From the NCBI GenBank assembly GCA_963580285.1, contig OY757011.1, positions 99,627,728-99,691,727 of the forward strand: a stretch of DNA of 64,000 nt, read 5' to 3'. Numbering within the stretch: the first letter of the stretch is position 1; each line of letters starts with the position of its first letter. This document shows positions 8,208-49,069 of the stretch, in pieces. Position numbers and translations under genes: made by a program. The stretch comes from Lucinisca nassula. Lineage: Eukaryota > Mollusca > Bivalvia > Lucinida > Lucinidae. The notes under the pieces were generated by a model that saw only the letters and a list, made by a program, of their open reading frames with translations, was not told where the DNA came from and did no database searches.

Positions 8208-9351
8208 GAGATTAACATGTAGGTCCCAGGGCGATGCAATATTTTGACCGGGGTCTATAATTTGAACAATCTAAGCAGAGGTCACTGAATGAAGCTTAAC
8301 ATCGAATATCAAAGGCATGGGCCTTCTGGTTTCGGACAAGAAGATTTTTAAAGTTTTCTCTATAGAAGTCTATGTAATACCAGTGGGTCCAAGGACGGGG
8401 CCATTTTTGGCCACCATGCTATGATTTGAACGATCAGGGTACAGGTCTATTAGATGAAGCTTCCTACCAAATATCAAAGACCTGGGCCTTCTGGTTTCAG
8501 ACAAGAAGATTTTTTTATGTGTTCCCTATATAAGCCTATATAAAACCGTTTTTGGCCCCAGGGTTATAATTTGAACAACCTTGGTAGAGGTCCACTAGAT
8601 GAAGCTTCAAACCAAATATCTAAGACCTGGGCCTTCTGGTTTCAGACAAGAAGATTTTTTAAGGTTTTCCCTCTATAAGCTTATATAAAACCAGCGGGCC
8701 CCGGTGCAGGAGCATTTTTCTCCCCAGGGCTATAATCTGAAAAGTCTTTGTAGAGGTCCAATAAATGAAGCTTCAGACAAAATACCATAGAACTGAGCTT
8801 TCTGGTCTTCACAATATAAGCCTGTATAAAACTAGTGGGCCCCGGCCTGGGGGTATTTTTAATCCCAGAGCTATAAATTGAACAATCTTGGTAGAGGTTC
8901 ACTAGATGAAGCTTCATATCAAATATCAAAGACCCGGGCCTTCTGGTTTCAGGAAAGAAGATTTTTAAAGGTTTTCCCTATATTAGCCTTTGTAAAACCA
9001 GTGGGCCCCGGCGCGGAGGCGTTTTTGACCCCATGGCTATAATATGAACAATCTTAGTAGAGGTCCACTAGATGAAGCTTCATACCAAATATCAAAGACC
9101 TGGGCCTTCTGGTTTCAGACAAGAAGATTTTTAAAGGTTTCCCCTATATAAGCCTATTTATCACCAGTGGGTCCCGGCACGGGGGCATTATTGGCCCCAG
9201 GGCTATAATTTGAACAATCTTGGTAAAGGTCCATTAGATGAAGCTTCATACCAAATGTCAAAGACCTGGGCCTTCTGGTTTCAGAGAAGAAGATTTTTAA
9301 AGGTTTTCACTATATAAGCCCAAATGTCAAAAACCATGGCTTTCTGGTTTC

Positions 9352-9869
9352 TCTGTCTCTGGTCGGGCTCATCGGAGTCTTACTGTTGGTTTTCTTTTGC
9401 TCCAGCATTTCAGTGGTTTCTTGCTGTCGAGTCCTCACCGTTGTCTCACCTCTGTGGTTCTTTGATTTTTGTGTTCACGGAGATGTTGCACTGATGAGTT
9501 AGGAGGCCTTCATGCGGACTGAACAAATTATTTGTCTAAATCGCGACGGAAGTAAGGGCGAGGATTGTGGCCACGTAAAATCGATTTAAGCCCCCAGTGG
9601 AAATCTTCCACTGACCGTTCCAAGGCGGCTCTTCTGTGGCGATTTATTTATGTTGTTGTTTGTTACTTACTGTGTGTATCACTTGTGTCTTTTGGTTTTG
9701 GATGGCCATATGGCCATTTTGTGGGAAAGTAACTGTCCTTATGGCCTTCCTTTGTTTAGGTTTCCATTATGGTCTAGTCGCTTAATGTTTGTATTTCTTT
9801 CCCTTTGGTGTCTTTTATGGGTGGAGTAAGTTAATTGTATCAATTCCTGATCTTTGTTTTACTTCTACT
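9352..9869 (+). mobile_element. Retroelement-like insertion sharing a 3' module with 60944-61176
   Basis: It splits a tandem unit (…ggtttc | insertion | ttcagacaag…), with tttc at both borders. The last ~237 bp (9632-9868) are about 95% identical to 60944-61176, where the right border with the host repeat is the same. The first 280 bp are not recognised. No open frame was found. Confidence 0.55.
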
Positions 9870-11474
9870 TTTCAGACAAGAAGATTTTTAAAGGTTTTTC
9901 CCTTATAAATCTATGTAAAACAAGTTGGCCCCGGGGCGGAGCCAGTTTTCACCCCTGGGCAATAATCTTGGTAGAGGTCTACTAGGTGAAGCTACATACC
10001 AAATATCAAAGACTTGGGCCTTCAGGATTCAGACAAGAAGATATTTAAAGGTTTTTCCCTTATAAGTCTATGAAACACCAGTGGGTCCCGGCGCGGGGCC
10101 ATTATTGGCCCCTTGGTTAAAATTTGAACAATCTTGGTATAAGTCCATCAGATGAAGCTCCATACCAAATATCAAAGATCTGGGCCTTCTGGATTCAGAG
10201 AAGAAGATTATTTAAAGGTTTTCCCTATATAAGCCCATGTAAAACCGGTTTGCCCCGGGGCGGGGTCGTTTTTGGCCCCAGGGCTATACTTTGAACAATC
10301 TAGGTAGAGGTCCACTAGATGAAGCTTCATAAAAAATATCAAAGACCTTGGCCTTCTGGTTTTCAGACAAGAAGATTTTTATATGTATTCCCTATATAAG
10401 CCTATGTAAAACCAATGGGCCCCGGCACGGGGGCGTTTTTGGCCCCAGGGCTATAATTTGAACAATCTAGGTAGATGAAGCTTCATACAAAATATCAAAG
10501 ACCTTGGCCTTCTGGTTTCAGACAAGAAGATTTTTATATGTTTTCCCTATATAAGCCTATGTAAAACCAGTTTGCCCCGGGGCGGGGTCGTTTTTGGCCC
10601 CAGGGCTATAATTTGAACAATCTAGGTAGAGGTCCACTAGATGAAGCTTCATACCAAATATCAAAGACCTGGGCCTTCTGGTTTATGACAAGAAGATTTT
10701 TTAAAGTTTTTCCCTATATAAGCCTATGTAAAACCAATGGGCCCGGGCACGGGGGCGTTTTTGGCCCCAGGGCTATAATTTGAACAATCTAGGTAGAGGT
10801 CCACTAGATGAAGCTTCATACAAAATATCAAATACCTTGGCCTTCTGGTTTCAGACAAGAAGATTTTTAAAGGTTTTCCCTAAATAAGCTTATGTAAAAC
10901 CAGTGGGCCCTGGCGCGGGGCCAGTTTTGGCCCCAGGGCTTTAATTTGAACAATCTTGGTAGAGGTCTACTAGGTGAAGCTTCAGACAAGAAGATTTTTA
11001 AAGTTTTTATCCTTTTTTCCCCTTTTTGTTGCCATGGCAACCAGAGTTTTGCATGGAATGGAGTTCTTTGAAGAACTTTGAGACAGGACCATACAAAGAT
11101 CATTTCTGCTAAGTTTGGTTCAAATCCATCCAGTGGTTTAGGAGGAGATGTTGTTTAAAGGAAAATGTGAACGGACATACAGACGACGACGACGACGACG
11201 GACGGTGAGTGATCACAATAGCTCCGCCGGAGCCTTCGGATCAGGTGAGCTAAAAATGATTGAAAGAGTTCCTCTCCCTTGTAATCCATTCCCTGTCCCT
11301 CAGTTTTATATAAATCTTAATTTTCTCGACAAACATGAAAGCTATTTGATATGTATCTTGCATGAACTATCAATTTTTTTCATTGCATCATCTAAATTGT
11401 CAATAGTTTGTTTGCTATTTTCTCTTGAAATCGTGTTGTTTCGTTTTAATGATAATCTTCATGTTTTATTTTAG

Positions 11475-20109: not shown

Positions 20110-21310
20110 TACCCGGCAAAAAAGTTCTGCACAACTGGGTTGTTTTCGACCTGTTTGCCTAAAACATAAATGTACAGTGTGAGTGAGTTTTAGTTTAACG
20201 TCCCACCAACAGCTAAGGTCATACGGAGACGGGACCTCGGTTTAAAGACTCATCCGAAAGTCTGGAGAAGCCCGGGATCGATCCTGCGATCCCTGGTTTA
20301 CAAGGCGAGTAGCGTAACCACTGCACCACGGAGGCTTCTACACATAAATGTACAGAAAAAATAATTACACCACAAGACAATTTAATTCAATCCTGATAAT
20401 AAACAGGAATCAAAACAAGAATATCATAACTGAGTCATGGGAGGCACATGGGGTAGGTTGTCAAAAATCACAGTTTCTGAACTGTAACTCAATAATCAAT
20501 AACGGGTATAGCCACCAAGATTCACACGACACTCGTCAAGTCTCCACCAGTCTGTGTATATGATGCTGAGGAATCGCAGCCCTCTTGGAGTAGAAGTGTC
20601 TGGAAGTCTTGTGTGTTGATTGCTTTGTTTGTTTACAGCCCGAACAAGAATATCCCACAAATATTCAATGCACGCCAAGTCAGGGGACACGGGCGGCCAC
20701 TCAAGTCTCCGCATACCATTCTGCTGCAGGAAAGCATCGACAATCCTGGCACGACGTGGTCTCGCATTGTCCTCCTGGAAGATGGAGTTCTGGCCCATCT
20801 GTCTGAGATACGGTACAACATGAGGCCTTAGAATTTCGTCAATGTACCGACGACCATTCAAATTTCCGGGCAATACGACATTGGCAGTTCTGCCATTAGA
20901 ACTGATACCTGCCAAACCATTACACTGCCGCCGTTGTAAGCTGTTGTTGGTAGGGCATTAGGCTCAAGGTGCCTCTCCCCAGTGCGGTGCCAAACTCTGA
21001 TCCGACCATCAATCTTCCGAAGACAAAATCTCGACTCGTCGGAAAAAAGAACTTCCGACCACTGCCGTCGGTTCCATCTGTCATGTCGTGCACAAAACTG
21101 GCGCCGTAGAGCCCTGTTCCGTTGAGAAAGCTGGGGCTTCATAGCCGGTTTTCTACATTTGAACCCCGAGGCTCGAACTCTGTTCCAGACTGTCTGAACC
21201 GAGATTCGACGTGCGCCAGGCCCCCGTTGTTGTCTCAACATTCTCTCCAGACTGGGACCATCAACAAAACGCCGCCTTGCTTTAGTTACCGCAATGTATC
21301 GGTACATTAT
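20110..21310 (-). pseudogene. Broken Tc1-type transposon with transposase remnant
   Basis: The minus-strand frame from about 21310 to 20490 encodes a Tc1 transposase lacking its N-terminal DNA-binding half. The catalytic triad regions are visible: SDESRF (first Asp), QEDNARP (second Asp) and SPDLACIEYLWD (third acidic residue). One base is missing after VMVW (about 20912-20917) and a second frame change follows the Asn-Gln-rich part near 20580, so it is inactive. The left terminal region 'cccggcaaaaaagttctgc' (20111-20130) is the usual element end. A SINE S1 (20178-20341) is inserted between the gene and that end. The right inverted repeat and the first ~70 residues are missing. Confidence 0.85.
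20178..20341 (-). mobile_element. SINE S1 inside the Tc1 remnant
   Basis: A perfect 14-bp target-site duplication 'acataaatgtacag' at 20164-20177 and 20342-20355 marks the insertion. Sequence is near identical to the copy at 19510-19673. Confidence 0.95.
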
Positions 21311-22254
21311 ATACATCATGTATTATACAAAAAAACAACAACTGTGGAATGCGGGGATATACGAGTACATAATTCTTTACTTTTGCTTGTGGGGACTCGT
21401 TAGAACCGCCTCTATGTGCTCTATGGGTTTGCTGTTCTGTATATTTTTTCGTACGTGTCATTTGTGTCTGTATTGCGTTCTTTACTTGGAATGACAGCCA
21501 ATACAGCTTTGTTTATTTTCAATGCATGCCGTGTGCTGCGGTAGGGTGCTCTTCTTAATTAACAATAGTGCATTTTATACCTGTATCTTATTACCACTGG
21601 ACTCACCGAGGATGTTTTCATATGGAATCATTTTGGGTCGATTGTGTGTCAACCGACCCAAAGTTACTAAGCCAAGAAGCTTTTCAGTGCTGATGTCCAC
21701 GTGACCATCAATCCAGATAATGGTTATTTATAGAAAATAGCCGCGCTATTCTTGTCTCTGTGACGCTATGAAATGGAAAGCTTATTCTTGCATAAATACC
21801 TATGCGCATGGCTGTTTGAAGCCATTGTCAAATGAACCGAAAGCCGTGCTCAAACAGCAAAAACCATGTTCAAATCATGAAATTCGCGTGCTGTTTGAAC
21901 ATGGATTTTGAGCTTTTGATATCACAAGACGGGCCTTGCTTTGTATACGTTACGTTGAGCGACGTAACGTTATCGCCCTGAACGTAGCGTTTAAGGGTTC
22001 TATAATGACGTCACTGCGTGACAACGTCATTGTAAACAACATTCTGAACTGGCCGCCATTTTGGTTTGCCTGTCGCATTTGAAGAGTTTATATGGAATTT
22101 ATATGGAGGTTTTGGGCGTTTTCGTCAAAATTTGTTGTCGGATTCGTAACTTCGATCACCCATGGTTATTTCATTGCATTAACATTTGCCAATGCATGAA
22201 AAACCATGGTTGATCCCTATATTGTAAAACACTGACTCGGAGCATGTGCTGGGA
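21311..22254. other. No gene seen; fragment of A/B core and a short palindrome
   Basis: A half core of the A/B hairpin ('actcgttagaaccgcctc') sits at about 21391-21412. A palindrome around 'acccatggttatttcattgc' spans about 22158-22218. CRE-like TGACGTCA sites occur at about 22003-22045. No gene identified. Confidence 0.4.
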
Positions 22255-31503: not shown

Positions 31504-31562
31504 ATTCTGGTATGTCAGATTTAGGTGTCACTCACTGGTCAGATGATTTCGCGAAGGAAATT

Positions 31563-31954
31563 CATCAAGAAAACACGCCTATATTATTTTGACCCCCTTG
31601 AACCCCACTTTTATATAGTAAAACTGGGGTTTACAGGGGTTAACCTTACTTTCTTATTTCTGCTCTAAAATATAAAGGCGGTTCTAACGAGTACCCACAA
31701 TCTATATTTTGTGCAGAAATAAGAAAAATATCACAATTTTTTATCTTAAAATTTTCTCTCTTTTTTCTGCGGTAAAGTTTAAATTTTAATTTTGAAAATA
31801 TCTGAGGGTCACTGATGAGGCCTAATTGGCCGAAACTAGCTAGTTTGGCCCAGAAAACATATACACTCTATATTTTTCAGTTCTGTGGTGTATTCCTTGC
31901 TTCCAAAGGATAACCCTTTTATAGAACACATTTGTATAGGCGTATTTCGTAATG
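31563..31954. mobile_element. A-type MITE with lost left core arm and a ribozyme-bearing insertion
   Basis: Left end CATCAAGAAAACACGCCTATA and right end TATAGGCGTATTTCGTAATG. Only the right arm of the central palindrome remains ('aaaggcggttctaacgagtac'). An unrelated ~140-bp segment (about 31792-31932) interrupts the right arm and carries a hammerhead ribozyme. Confidence 0.75.
31806..31851 (+). ncRNA. Hammerhead ribozyme, minimal, open stem I
   Basis: All conserved core bases are present in order: stem I 5' strand GGGTCA (31806-31811), CTGATGA (31812-31818), stem II GGCC-TAATT-GGCC (31819-31831), GAAA (31832-31835), short stem III ACT-AGCT-AGT (31835-31844), cleavage base T (31845), and stem I 3' strand TGGCCC (31846-31851). 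Stem I has six pairs (one G-U), stem II four, stem III three. Self-cleavage would follow 31845. Such minimal hammerheads with a very short stem III are known in Penelope-like elements and in small retrozymes of bivalves. The host segment is a ~140-bp insertion in an A-type MITE, and no Penelope protein is seen nearby. Activity is inferred, not shown. Confidence 0.88.
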
Positions 31955-31988
31955 TGGACAACGTCCTTTCAAAGGCTATCATGCTCAT

Positions 31989-34057
31989 TTAGCCATGCAA
32001 CAAAAACGCATGAAGAAAGCATATTATACTGAAATTGATTATACTATGTATAGCTGTTTTATAGTTCAGATGACCACCGTTTCTAAGCCCTAGTTCCACT
32101 TGAGTTGAAATATCGGTCGTTGAATGGTCTTCAAAGAGAGGAAAATTCATCTGGTTGCTTCCAAGCCTTCTTGTGCGTATACCGGCTCGGACAACACCAC
32201 TTTCCATGTTGGATCCGACGACGTCAGCCTTAACAGAAGGGACAACCATAGATGTCAATTCAGTAACGAAGCCGTACGTCAGGGACAGATTAAGAGCTTG
32301 AGCATGGAGTTTCGCTTTTAAACTGTCATCTATACCGGTCTCGATCGCGGCTTGTTTTAGTAAATCTGTTATTTTCTTGTATACATATAGTCTCGACAAA
32401 AATGTCTGTTTTCAGGCCGAGTGAAGCTTATCCTGCGGGTTGCTACAAATTCGACGTTGTCTTGGTTATTTCTAGCATAGACCCGCGGTTGAAAGAGATA
32501 CGTGGCAGGTGCACCTTCATCATTTGTTGTTCCCTCTTCATCTGGTCCTGATAGGAATTCGTCAATCATCCCTGACACGACCAGTTCCGAACCACAGAAG
32601 TACTGGGGAAAATCAGTTTGTGTCAGAGTAATTGGCAGGAGTTCGTCTCTATCCCCATTATAATCGAATCGAACATCATTTAGATAGGGGTCTTGAAACC
32701 CTTCGAAGAAATTCAGGAGAAGAGAACTAGCTTCCGCATCCGTCCTGATGGCAGTATAGGTACCGCCGTTGCTCCATGCAATTTGTTTTAACAAATCTTC
32801 ATTAGTGTGTGTTCCAAATGCAAGCGAGAATATTGGCGCGTACAATGATCCGTCATTAAGCCTATTTTCCGCGCCGACTTGCCTTCGTATCTCTATTGCA
32901 TTTGTTACGCCCTCTGTTGCCCTGCCGTCCGTTAGAAATACCACAATGTTGCTCTTCTGTTCGTCACTCCGGGGCAACAGTTTAGATTTGAACATTTTTA
33001 TTCCTTCTAACAGTGCTGTATTTATGTTTGTTCCCCCAGATGCTGTAATGGTTTCAATATAGTTTATTGCGGTCATAATGTTATTTTCAGATGCTTCTAC
33101 AAGAACAGGCCGCCATTTGTCAATGATTTTTTGAAATGTGATCACGTTAAAATAATCCGAAGGCCGTAGCTGACTCAGGATTGTCTTCAGCGCAGTTTTC
33201 ACATAGTCGATTCTGGGGGATCTCATTGAGCCACTTTTGTCTACGACGAAGACGATACGCTTATTCAGGATCATATCATTTTGACATTCTGGTGAGAAGA
33301 AATGCGTGAAATAGTCTTCACTTTCAACGACTATTCCACCGTCTGTGTCATGAATGACGTCGTAATCGACTATCAATTTATCGCCCAGTCCAAGGTTGGG
33401 GTCTACAGTGATCTGTGACTGCACTGAAGGCCTGTAATTAATCTTTCGTGTAAAGTCGGTAAATTCTGTACTGACTTCTGTCATATCAGCTGTTGGTAAC
33501 TTGTATTTGAAAGACCGAAAACCCTGTGGTTCCATAAAGAAGCAGGCCACATTAAGGTCTGGAACTATTTGTTTGGGACTTAGAAATAGCCATTGGGAGT
33601 AAACCCCAAGTCGGCGCTCCAGAAGTTCTTGATATTGTAAAAGAAATTCAATCAACGAGTCCGCCGGAATAAACACTTCAACTTTAAACAGTTCGTAATC
33701 CAAATCCTCCTGAACGAGAGCCTGTCTTGTTATTAACCCAGTTGCCGATTTTTTTTCCTTTGCGGCAGTGTAAATTTCCTTTGCCTCCTTATTTTCTCGT
33801 ATCTCTCCATGAAATTCCTCCCCGTTTAGAAGGATCTTGAAGCTAGTGATGAAGGCTTGTTTTGGCATCCGCACTTCAAAGCTGATTTCTTCTCCACCCC
33901 CCTCATTATTCACCACAGTGCTTGAGACGCTTACCTCGGCAAAGTGCACGGATACATTGGAGGTGATTGTCATTCGAGTAATCTCGGCTTTACCCTCGGC
34001 TTTTTTCACAACGTGTAAAAGAAAAGGCACGAGACAAAAACAAATATTAAAAATCAT
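31989..34057 (-). CDS. ITIH-like VIT and VWA domain protein, frameshifted
   Basis: The chosen start at 34057 (minus) begins with a hydrophobic signal-peptide-like stretch (MIFNICFCLVPFLLHVV); the ATG 26 codons upstream would add a lysine run encoded by a poly-A tract. A VIT domain spans about residues 25-155. A VWA domain from about residue 265 has an intact metal site: DKSGS (273-277), T343 and D377. This is the layout of inter-alpha-trypsin inhibitor heavy chains, secreted proteins that bind hyaluronan and matrix. The frame breaks at a run of five bases (32398-32402): one reading ends 14 codons later at a stop, while the other continues with the expected LYVYKKITDLLKQ and YGFVTELTSMVV segments to a stop at 31989. 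The end is hydrophobic (IINFSIICFLHAFLL), which could be a GPI signal. No introns are visible, so it may be a retrogene. One missing base may be an assembly error or real decay. Confidence 0.85.
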
Positions 34058-34339
34058 TGTCCTATTTGCTTCTGTTTTTTTTTTTTTTTTTTTTCGTAAT
34101 ATATAGGTATTTAAGTATTTAGTCCCTCTTAACAATCTTTAGCATTCTCTATACATGCTAGACACGGAAACATTAATCTTTCTGATATGTTTGAAAAGTC
34201 ATTTTATAGTCCATGCATCCTTATTGGACGTCATGAACAAAAATGTCATGGTAACATACTCACGTTGCTGTTATAGTCTCAGCTCTCTAGTTAAACTATT
34301 AAATAAGTCGGCCACAACAAAACCTACACGAATACAGAA

Positions 34340-47716: not shown

Positions 47717-49069
47717 ACTAGAGAAAGTGCCCAGTGGGGCACGTATACCCCCAGCCAGTGCCATCCACTTTTAGTGGAAATGACAATTTGTCTGTAGCAT
47801 TGAACCTTTCCATATAAACTTTCCATTTGGTCCACTGAGAATAACTATTGCATTTCAACAACAAGGAGTATAATGAAAACAGTTAACACAAAACTTGGAC
47901 GTAATCAAAATGCCTAAGTCTTAATTATTAGCCCTAGCCTCACCAAGGGGATTGACCCAGGAGCTTAGATATTCTGTATGAAAGTTAATACTATAGATAT
48001 ATTATGTACAGAATATGGAGAGAATCTAACATGAGGTTACAGAGATATGAGCAATCAAAAAGGTTTAACACAAAACTTTGACGTAAAAATTGACAAATGG
48101 GCAGACAGCTCACCCAGGGGCTTGACCCAGGGGCTTAGATATTATATATGAAAGGTAATGCTGTAGAGATATCTTTTACCAAACATGAAGAAAATCTAAC
48201 ATGTGGTTACAGAGATATAAGCAATCAAAAAGGTTTAACACAAAACTTTGATGTCAATGTTGACAAACAGGCGGACAGCTAACCCAGGGGCTTGACCCAG
48301 GGGCTTAGATATTCTATATGAAAGGTAATGCTATAGAGATATTAAGAGAATCTAACATGTGGTTACAGAGATATGAGCAATCAAAAAGGTTTCATACAAA
48401 ACATTGACGTAAATGTTAATGAACGGACGGACGGACAGACGGACTGACGGATGGACAGCCCACCCAGGGGCTTGACCCGCAAGCTTAGATATTTCAAATG
48501 AAAGGTAATGCTATAGAGAAATCCTGTACCAAATATGAAGAGAATCCAACATGTGGCGACAGAGATATGAGCCATCAAAAAGGTTTAACACAAAACTTTG
48601 ACGTAAAAGTTGACAAACGGACGGACAGCCCACCCTGGGGCTTGACCCAGGGTTTGCACCAGGGGCTTAGAAAACCATATGAAAGGTAATGCTATAGAGA
48701 TATCCTTTATCAGACATGAAGAGAATCTAACATGTTGTTACAGAGATGTCAGCAATTAAAAAGGTTTAACAAAAAACTTTGACATAAAAGTAGATGAACA
48801 GACAGACAGACAGGCAGACAGCCCACCCAGGAACTTGACCCAGGGGCTTAGATATTCCACATGAAAGGTAATGCTATAGAGATATGCTTTACCAAATATG
48901 AAGAGAATCTAACATGTGGCTACAGAGATATGAGCAATCAAGAAGGTTTAACGCAAAACTTTGATGTAAAGGTTGACAAACGGCGGGAAAGACAAAAAGT
49001 AAGAATGAACAAACAGACGGAAAGACGAAAACTATATACCCCCTGACATACTTCGTATGCCGGGGGTAT
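47717..49069 (+). mobile_element. Nested Helentron-like element with ~170-bp units
   Basis: It interrupts 'cataaggaac | aagaattta' of the host array. The 5' end has GTGCCCAGTGGGGCAC and TATACCCCCA. Six units are marked by 'caggggcttagatatt' near 47960, 48135, 48300, 48480, 48660 and 48845. The end carries GACGGA/CAGA repeats and a hairpin ACCCCCTGACATAC-TTC-GTATGCCGGGGGT (about 49038-49066). Confidence 0.8.

Follow-up and report, generated by a model that had tools for sequence, protein, structure and literature searches.

On balance, the insert at positions 31788-31933 of the window (the whole stretch of DNA that was analyzed, 64,000 nucleotides) is a 5'-truncated copy of a repeated 261-bp retrozyme with a predicted self-cleavage site after base 31845, whose family was likely inserted in a Penelope-like manner, by target-primed reverse transcription from a fixed internal site that lies about 88 nt 3' of the cut. 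The question addressed is which enzyme moves animal retrozymes, and such a model of insertion would help to explain their mobility. A 3' boundary that is sharp and as far from the hammerhead as the site where a Penelope-like protein most often begins to copy in vitro also provides a positional test that can be applied to every retrozyme genome, and one that could be reconstituted at the bench.

A retrozyme copy within a MITE-like repeat

The features of the insert, its ribozyme and its surroundings are summarized in Table 1.

Table 1. Positions of the hammerhead elements, the insert, the host repeat and the neighboring gene in the window.
Feature	Position	Strand	Remarks
Stem I (GGGTCA/TGGCCC)	31806-31811 / 31846-31851	+	Six pairs, one of them G-U
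Catalytic core CTGATGA	31812-31818	+	Read from the sequence
Stem II (GGCC/GGCC)	31819-31822 / 31828-31831	+	Loop TAATT
Catalytic core GAA plus A15.1	31832-31835 (GAA 31832-31834)	+	Read from the sequence
Stem III (ACT/AGT)	31835-31837 / 31842-31844	+	Loop AGCT
H17	T31845	+	Cleavage therefore predicted between 31845 and 31846
Retrozyme copy, 5'-truncated, single ribozyme	31788-31933 (146 bp)	+	Unit positions 204-261, then 1-88
5' junction AATTTT	31782-31787 (6 bp)	+	Insert-free paralogues have CAATGT here
ATTT, usual 3' terminus of the family	31930-31933	+	Ends 88 nt past the cut; the empty target TGTATTTGTATAG contains it as well
Host MITE-like repeat, split by the insertion	31561-31955	.	Inverted arms 31571-31583 and 31935-31947
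ITIH-like gene region	31989-34138	-	ORF 32369-34138 with VIT and VWA; ORF 31989-32411

The two portions of the host repeat (31561-31781 and about 31930-31955) have many paralogues within the window, and insert-free paralogues were found as seven matches in the window and 12 in the fetched loci. Where the aligned insert-free paralogues have the consensus GTTTACAATGTATTTGTATAGGCG, the window reads GTTTA - AATTTT - retrozyme - GTATAGGCG, and 31788-31933 is thus identified as an insertion; the insertion of about 140 bp described in the earlier note is thereby borne out, with a measured length of 146 bp. The AATTTT at the 5' junction represents filler or target loss, six target bases having been lost or replaced, and in the alignment to the insert-free paralogues no target-site duplication was seen around the window insert. 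The ATTT at the 3' junction may have served as priming microhomology. A further copy, in locus L041, lies in a similar MITE-like repeat with an identical 3' junction and a different 5' end. The earlier note had also placed the ribozyme inside a MITE, which holds for the MITE-like host but not for the ribozyme as a property of the MITE, since the ribozyme comes from a distinct family of 261-bp tandem units; a ribozyme unit forming part of the MITE was rejected, as the repeat has paralogues that lack this unit both in the window and at other loci. Bivalve MITEs and HINEs that bear tandem repeats (pearl, DTC84, BIV160) consist of a tandem core nested in MITE-like flanks; unlike these, the family described here occurs outside the MITE-like repeat as well and has ends of the retroelement type.

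The window copy equals the family majority at 142 of 146 bases, and one of the four differences is the cleavage base, the cleavage triplet being GUU in the window and GUC in the majority. It is most likely a dead insertion with an intact-looking ribozyme; a unit-length circle could not arise from it, as it has a single ribozyme and lacks a second unit.

The search for other copies that the earlier note had proposed was made across the genome (2.93 Gb, 696 contigs) and, with the best 40 of 2622 first-look candidates scored, gave at least 59 matched stretches. Many of the copies stand in tandem arrays with a 261-bp unit that carries one hammerhead; unit positions are counted below from the first base 3' of the predicted cut. 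Among the 169 hammerhead-like instances in the fetched loci, 74 equal the family consensus, and in 126 the core is preserved and no more than one pair is disrupted. Judged by its sequence, this is a new family within the known animal (metazoan) non-LTR retrozymes, to which the earlier note had rightly pointed alongside Penelope-like elements, and the lack of a visible reverse transcriptase noted there fits a non-autonomous element. As far as the accessible text of Cervera and de la Pena (2020, PMC7229834) goes, the family resembles the metazoan non-LTR retrozymes in its type I hammerhead, its short stem III with a tetraloop, its tandem repeats within the 150-450 bp range (period 261), its low GC content (0.41, below the 50% limit of that class) and its many copies, and differs from them in sequence and in its 261-bp unit, the units given there being 220-245 bp in Acropora, about 350-390 bp in Mytilus and 330/350 bp in axolotl. 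Metazoan non-LTR retrozymes are further characterized by expression as circular RNA, by the lack of an LTR, a PBS and a PPT and, when target-site duplications are present, by lengths of these above 4 bp; the same part of that source was not found to describe microhomology with the target or a 3' end that prefers a point 88 nt beyond the cut, both of which were seen here. With the plant LTR retrozymes, as portrayed in the accessible parts of PMC7761336 and PMC7229834, the family shares a non-autonomous nature, a hammerhead in direct repeats and a circular RNA model; the plant elements have type III hammerheads, 4-bp target-site duplications, a PBS and a PPT, whereas the present family has a type I hammerhead and no clear target-site duplication.

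Ends, junctions and arrays

The ends of the copies were analyzed in two samples of loci, one made up of loci that resemble the window insert and the other selected by the linker between ribozyme regions, for which 30 of 40 matches were cut out as loci. Young copies are favored, because both samples consist of the best-scoring matches. From 86 segments, 80 remained after comparison of flank similarity and 75 after removal of those at an edge or next to another segment; the superseded loci L002, L003, L005 and L043 were omitted, and one 133-bp piece is counted twice among the segments (L057 and L058). Segment lengths range from 43 to 1889 bp. In 63 of the 75 segments the 3' end falls at unit position 86-92, and hence 86-92 nt past the cut (39/45 in the insert-similarity sample and 24/30 in the linker sample), where a uniform distribution would place about two of 75 in a seven-base window of 261. 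Among segments of at least 180 bp the proportion is 60 of 65, and seven of the 12 segments ending elsewhere are no longer than 145 bp. The boundary is not only a recent one, since three of the six copies below 90% identity end at 87-88. The accessible portions of the open-licence retrozyme literature examined were not found to describe an end that is fixed relative to the cleavage site.

The 5' ends are scattered across the unit, and a uniform distribution was not rejected (KS p = 0.21). Among the 75 segments no 3' end lies within 3 nt of the cut and no 5' end within 4 nt, the closest 5' ends being at positions 257 and 7. A peak of 5' ends at 142-148 (13/75) lies in the 3' arm of a hairpin in the MFE fold (z -1.74) and may reflect a polymerase stop at that hairpin. 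One long array, L035, extends 37 nt further than usual and stops at unit position 125 on its 3' side, which may mark a second start site comparable to the Penelope tail.

Flanking direct repeats averaged 3.16 bp against 2.90 in shuffled flanks (44 segments, p = 0.14), and target-site duplications thus show no clear excess over shuffled flanks. Rare duplications do exist, as repeats of 7 bp or more flank two of the 44 segments, one of them with 9 bp, against 0.44 expected. Microhomology could be assessed at 25 insertions with an empty paralogue, 15 of which have a close one (at least 78% identity). At these 15 the 3' microhomology averaged 2.6 nt against 0.75 in the null, a value reached in none of 5000 resamplings, and the target matched the element over four or more nt in six of the 15, against 2.3% in the null; this test is free of the bias from choosing the best of several sites. 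Shared bases (1-6 nt) were present at 11 of these 15 readable 3' junctions and absent from four. By strict overlap the 25 insertions gave a mean of 1.84 nt against 0.45, with 11 at zero, a comparison biased upward because the observed value is the best of several empty sites and the null uses one. ATTT, TTTA or TTCAA occurs at several junctions, as counted without a base-composition control for the targets. At several junctions the last element bases are TTCAA in place of TTTAA, and the target of L054 likewise has TTCAA; at such junctions the target strand itself may have acted as the primer, with a single G-U pair in its duplex with the RNA. At the 5' junction of L004 there is a filler like repeated pieces of the start of the element (CATCCCTACATCATC), which resembles templated end joining.

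Within arrays, unit divergence was 2.17% for adjacent and 2.21% for non-adjacent units and 4.43% between arrays; in a larger set the values were 3.70%, 3.26% and 5.17%, so that divergence within arrays is half to two-thirds of that between them. Subfamily variants are mostly uniform inside one array, apart from site 84, from sites 16 and 24 of a few arrays and from L039, which varies at position 261. These patterns fit repeated copying of a single template; spread at the DNA level through unequal exchange was not favored, since units of an array resemble one another equally whether or not they adjoin. Unit position 84 (window 31929) is T or C, with 19 C among 102, and is mixed inside arrays that are otherwise rather uniform. 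It is not a CpG site, and editing, misreading by reverse transcriptase and an old polymorphism are candidate sources of the variation.

Candidate routes of insertion

In the accessible parts of the sources, Penelope-like elements are named as a strong candidate partner of animal retrozymes (PMC7229834), and metazoan repeats are described as having no conserved motif from which an autonomous partner could be deduced (PMC7761336). A Penelope-like partner is proposed here mainly because of an equal spacing in an element with the same type of ribozyme, the Poseidon element of Anolis, for which Frangieh et al. (2024, PMC11167929) report that reverse transcription starts inside the RNA, most often 111-118 nt into the ORF, and that the hammerhead cuts 26 nt into it. 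By our subtraction of these values, the distance from cut to start is 85-92 nt in Poseidon, which coincides with the fixed end described above, the comparison being with one published element and the commoner of its two start sites. The fixed 3' end of the retrozyme would then correspond to the start of reverse transcription, which suggests, by analogy, that a Penelope-type enzyme moves this family. The Poseidon protein prefers A/T-rich DNA containing ATT, and its genomic copies end at the start sites (PMC11167929); tandem copies are found in both elements, and sequences resembling such targets stand at several junctions of the present family. Poseidon is autonomous, with an ORF and a second start site separated from the first by a tail of 30-40 bp, whereas the present family has a 261-bp unit, and the Poseidon start is not homologous to its target, in contrast to the bases shared at most of the readable junctions here (PMC11167929).

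In the model that we propose, multimeric retrozyme transcripts would cleave themselves at the hammerheads, and the monomers would be joined into circles, as assumed from the accessible text on animal retrozymes (PMC7229834). A Penelope-like protein would nick A/T-rich DNA, and the 3' end of the target strand would anneal to AUUUAA at unit positions 85-90. The enzyme might then complete as many as about seven rounds of the circle before falling off, and the outcome would be an array of tandem units that is constant at one end and ragged at the other. Because hammerhead cleavage is dispensable for insertion of Poseidon in vitro (PMC11167929), uncleaved multimers rather than circles may serve as template. 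It is possible, if short of probable, that animal retrozymes in general are parasites of Penelope-like elements that keep the hammerhead and, at an equal spacing of about 88 nt, the internal start site used by the Penelope reverse transcriptase, with repeated passage round their circular RNA giving rise to such arrays.

GIY-YIG domains gave at least 138 matches in the genome (best 150 of 746 candidates scored), of which some fall within ORFs that are 763-820 aa long and some form pairs on the same strand, separated by 3.8-4.0 kb. The pairs at C5:35878300/35882109, C5:145336487/145340514 and C6:63493014/63496822 of this genome (G000) are candidate Penelope-like elements. Several retrozyme arrays sit inside or beside members of a family of RT-like ORFs (L041:704-1774, L031:4391-5407, and in L018, L019, L039, L004, L009, L011, L020, L040 and L062), in which the motifs YDFSTLYTTLP, GIPMGTNCAPLVADLFLYCYE and RYLDD are recognizable by eye and which has no Pfam match. 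This family has no match in the 64-kb window, and by this one comparison, with the window, an enrichment near retrozymes was not established.

Movement by a LINE-type element with an APE endonuclease, in which a linear transcript would be mobilized in the manner of a SINE with its 3' end at 88 and with 5' truncation, would also account for a preferred 3' end and ragged 5' ends, and the peak of 5' ends at 142-148 could then be the start of the transcript. The genome does contain a LINE-like open stretch of 836 aa with RVT_1 and Exo_endo_phos_2, which reaches the edge of L038. We nevertheless consider this unlikely, as the flanks inspected show no poly(A) or simple-repeat tail past position 88 and base counts at the first flank positions are mixed, target-site duplications are without clear excess, and read-through of the 3' end would be required for arrays in which position 88 recurs internally up to seven times. 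Spread at the DNA level, as a satellite or a Helitron/HINE-like repeat, by DNA circles or rolling-circle transposition and with the hammerhead as a passenger, is less probable still: tandem arrays, the want of clear target-site duplications and the nesting of several copies in the same MITE-like repeats agree with it, but DNA circles predict no preferred 3' end, and rolling-circle transposons are expected to have both ends fixed, whereas the segments share a 3' end and are scattered at the 5' end; the likeness of non-adjacent to adjacent units also argues against it. The Penelope-type route is thus the reading that we prefer for this family.

Gene context and the hammerhead match

The earlier note's statement that the ribozyme is antisense to an ITIH-like gene was substantiated, as the gene lies on the minus strand with both VIT and VWA in its longer ORF (Table 1), for which the highest-ranked of the organism-labelled homologues are molluscan, so that the host is likely a mollusc. 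A ribozyme that still looks intact and lies about 138 bp past the last ORF, as counted on the strand of the gene, might be thought to have been co-opted to process a transcript beside it. This is very improbable, because the ribozyme is antisense to the gene, the copy differs from the family majority at only four of 146 bases, the cleavage base among them, and it is one of many in the genome; nothing that was observed points to a role of the ribozyme in the ITIH-like gene. Elsewhere in the window, long tandem arrays with units of roughly 141-170 bp occupy 10-1618, 8404-10989 and 47939-48986, and a piece of a transposase-like ORF (HTH_Tnp_Tc3_2) lies at 20858-21322.

A descriptor scan found exactly one exact-core motif with stems of 6, 4 and 3 bp in the window, at 31806-31851 (+), which has the CUGANGA, GAAA and NUH core and three stems in the order of a type I hammerhead. 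For this geometry no match was obtained in 60 simulated 64-kb windows or in 400 further ones (first-order Markov); a looser geometry (4,3,2) gave 14 matches across the 400. The MFE fold of 31804-31853 has three stems and is near the hammerhead (z -1.65), and that of the isolated 46-mer differs from it. An Rfam scan of the window gave no match at the gathering score, and the motif was not among the 73 matches up to E 10 in a permissive scan of the whole window. In a 301-base region the best two matches were RF03152 (22.3 bits against a gathering score of 56.3, E 0.14) and RF00008 (18.2 bits against 48.5, E 0.24), both hammerhead models below threshold. The earlier note had named beforehand the lack of a covariance match above threshold as a result that would count against its complete hammerhead, and on that point the outcome is formally adverse. 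The hammerhead is upheld despite these scores because the family evidence (169 instances) outweighs them, and with its core and 6/4/3 stems 31806-31851 is confirmed as a genuine type I hammerhead for which self-cleavage is predicted. A chance resemblance, with which the low Rfam scores would agree, is hardly credible at all and was rejected by the simulated windows (0/60 and 0/400), and the recurrence of the motif throughout the family already contradicts it.

With a relaxed descriptor no hammerhead from outside the family was found in the window and the loci up to L073 (L001, L002, L003, L005 and L043 being left out as repeats of other loci). Over the instances in the fetched loci a paired double change was confined to the second pair of stem II. 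The pattern CTGATGAGTCCN{3,8}GGACGAAAC matches just two places in the genome, both of them members of the retrozyme family with that pair compensated, and constitutes weak evidence for covariation, since the pattern was selected for that change. The two places, L072:1486-1531 and L073:1486-1531, have the compensated pair in a GTCC/GGAC stem II and a common GGATCA stem I, and L073 holds an additional unit with a single one of the two stem II changes. The core pattern CTGATGAGGCCN{4,6}GGCCGAAAC was matched by at least 120 stretches of the viral collection and by 11 of the prokaryote collection.
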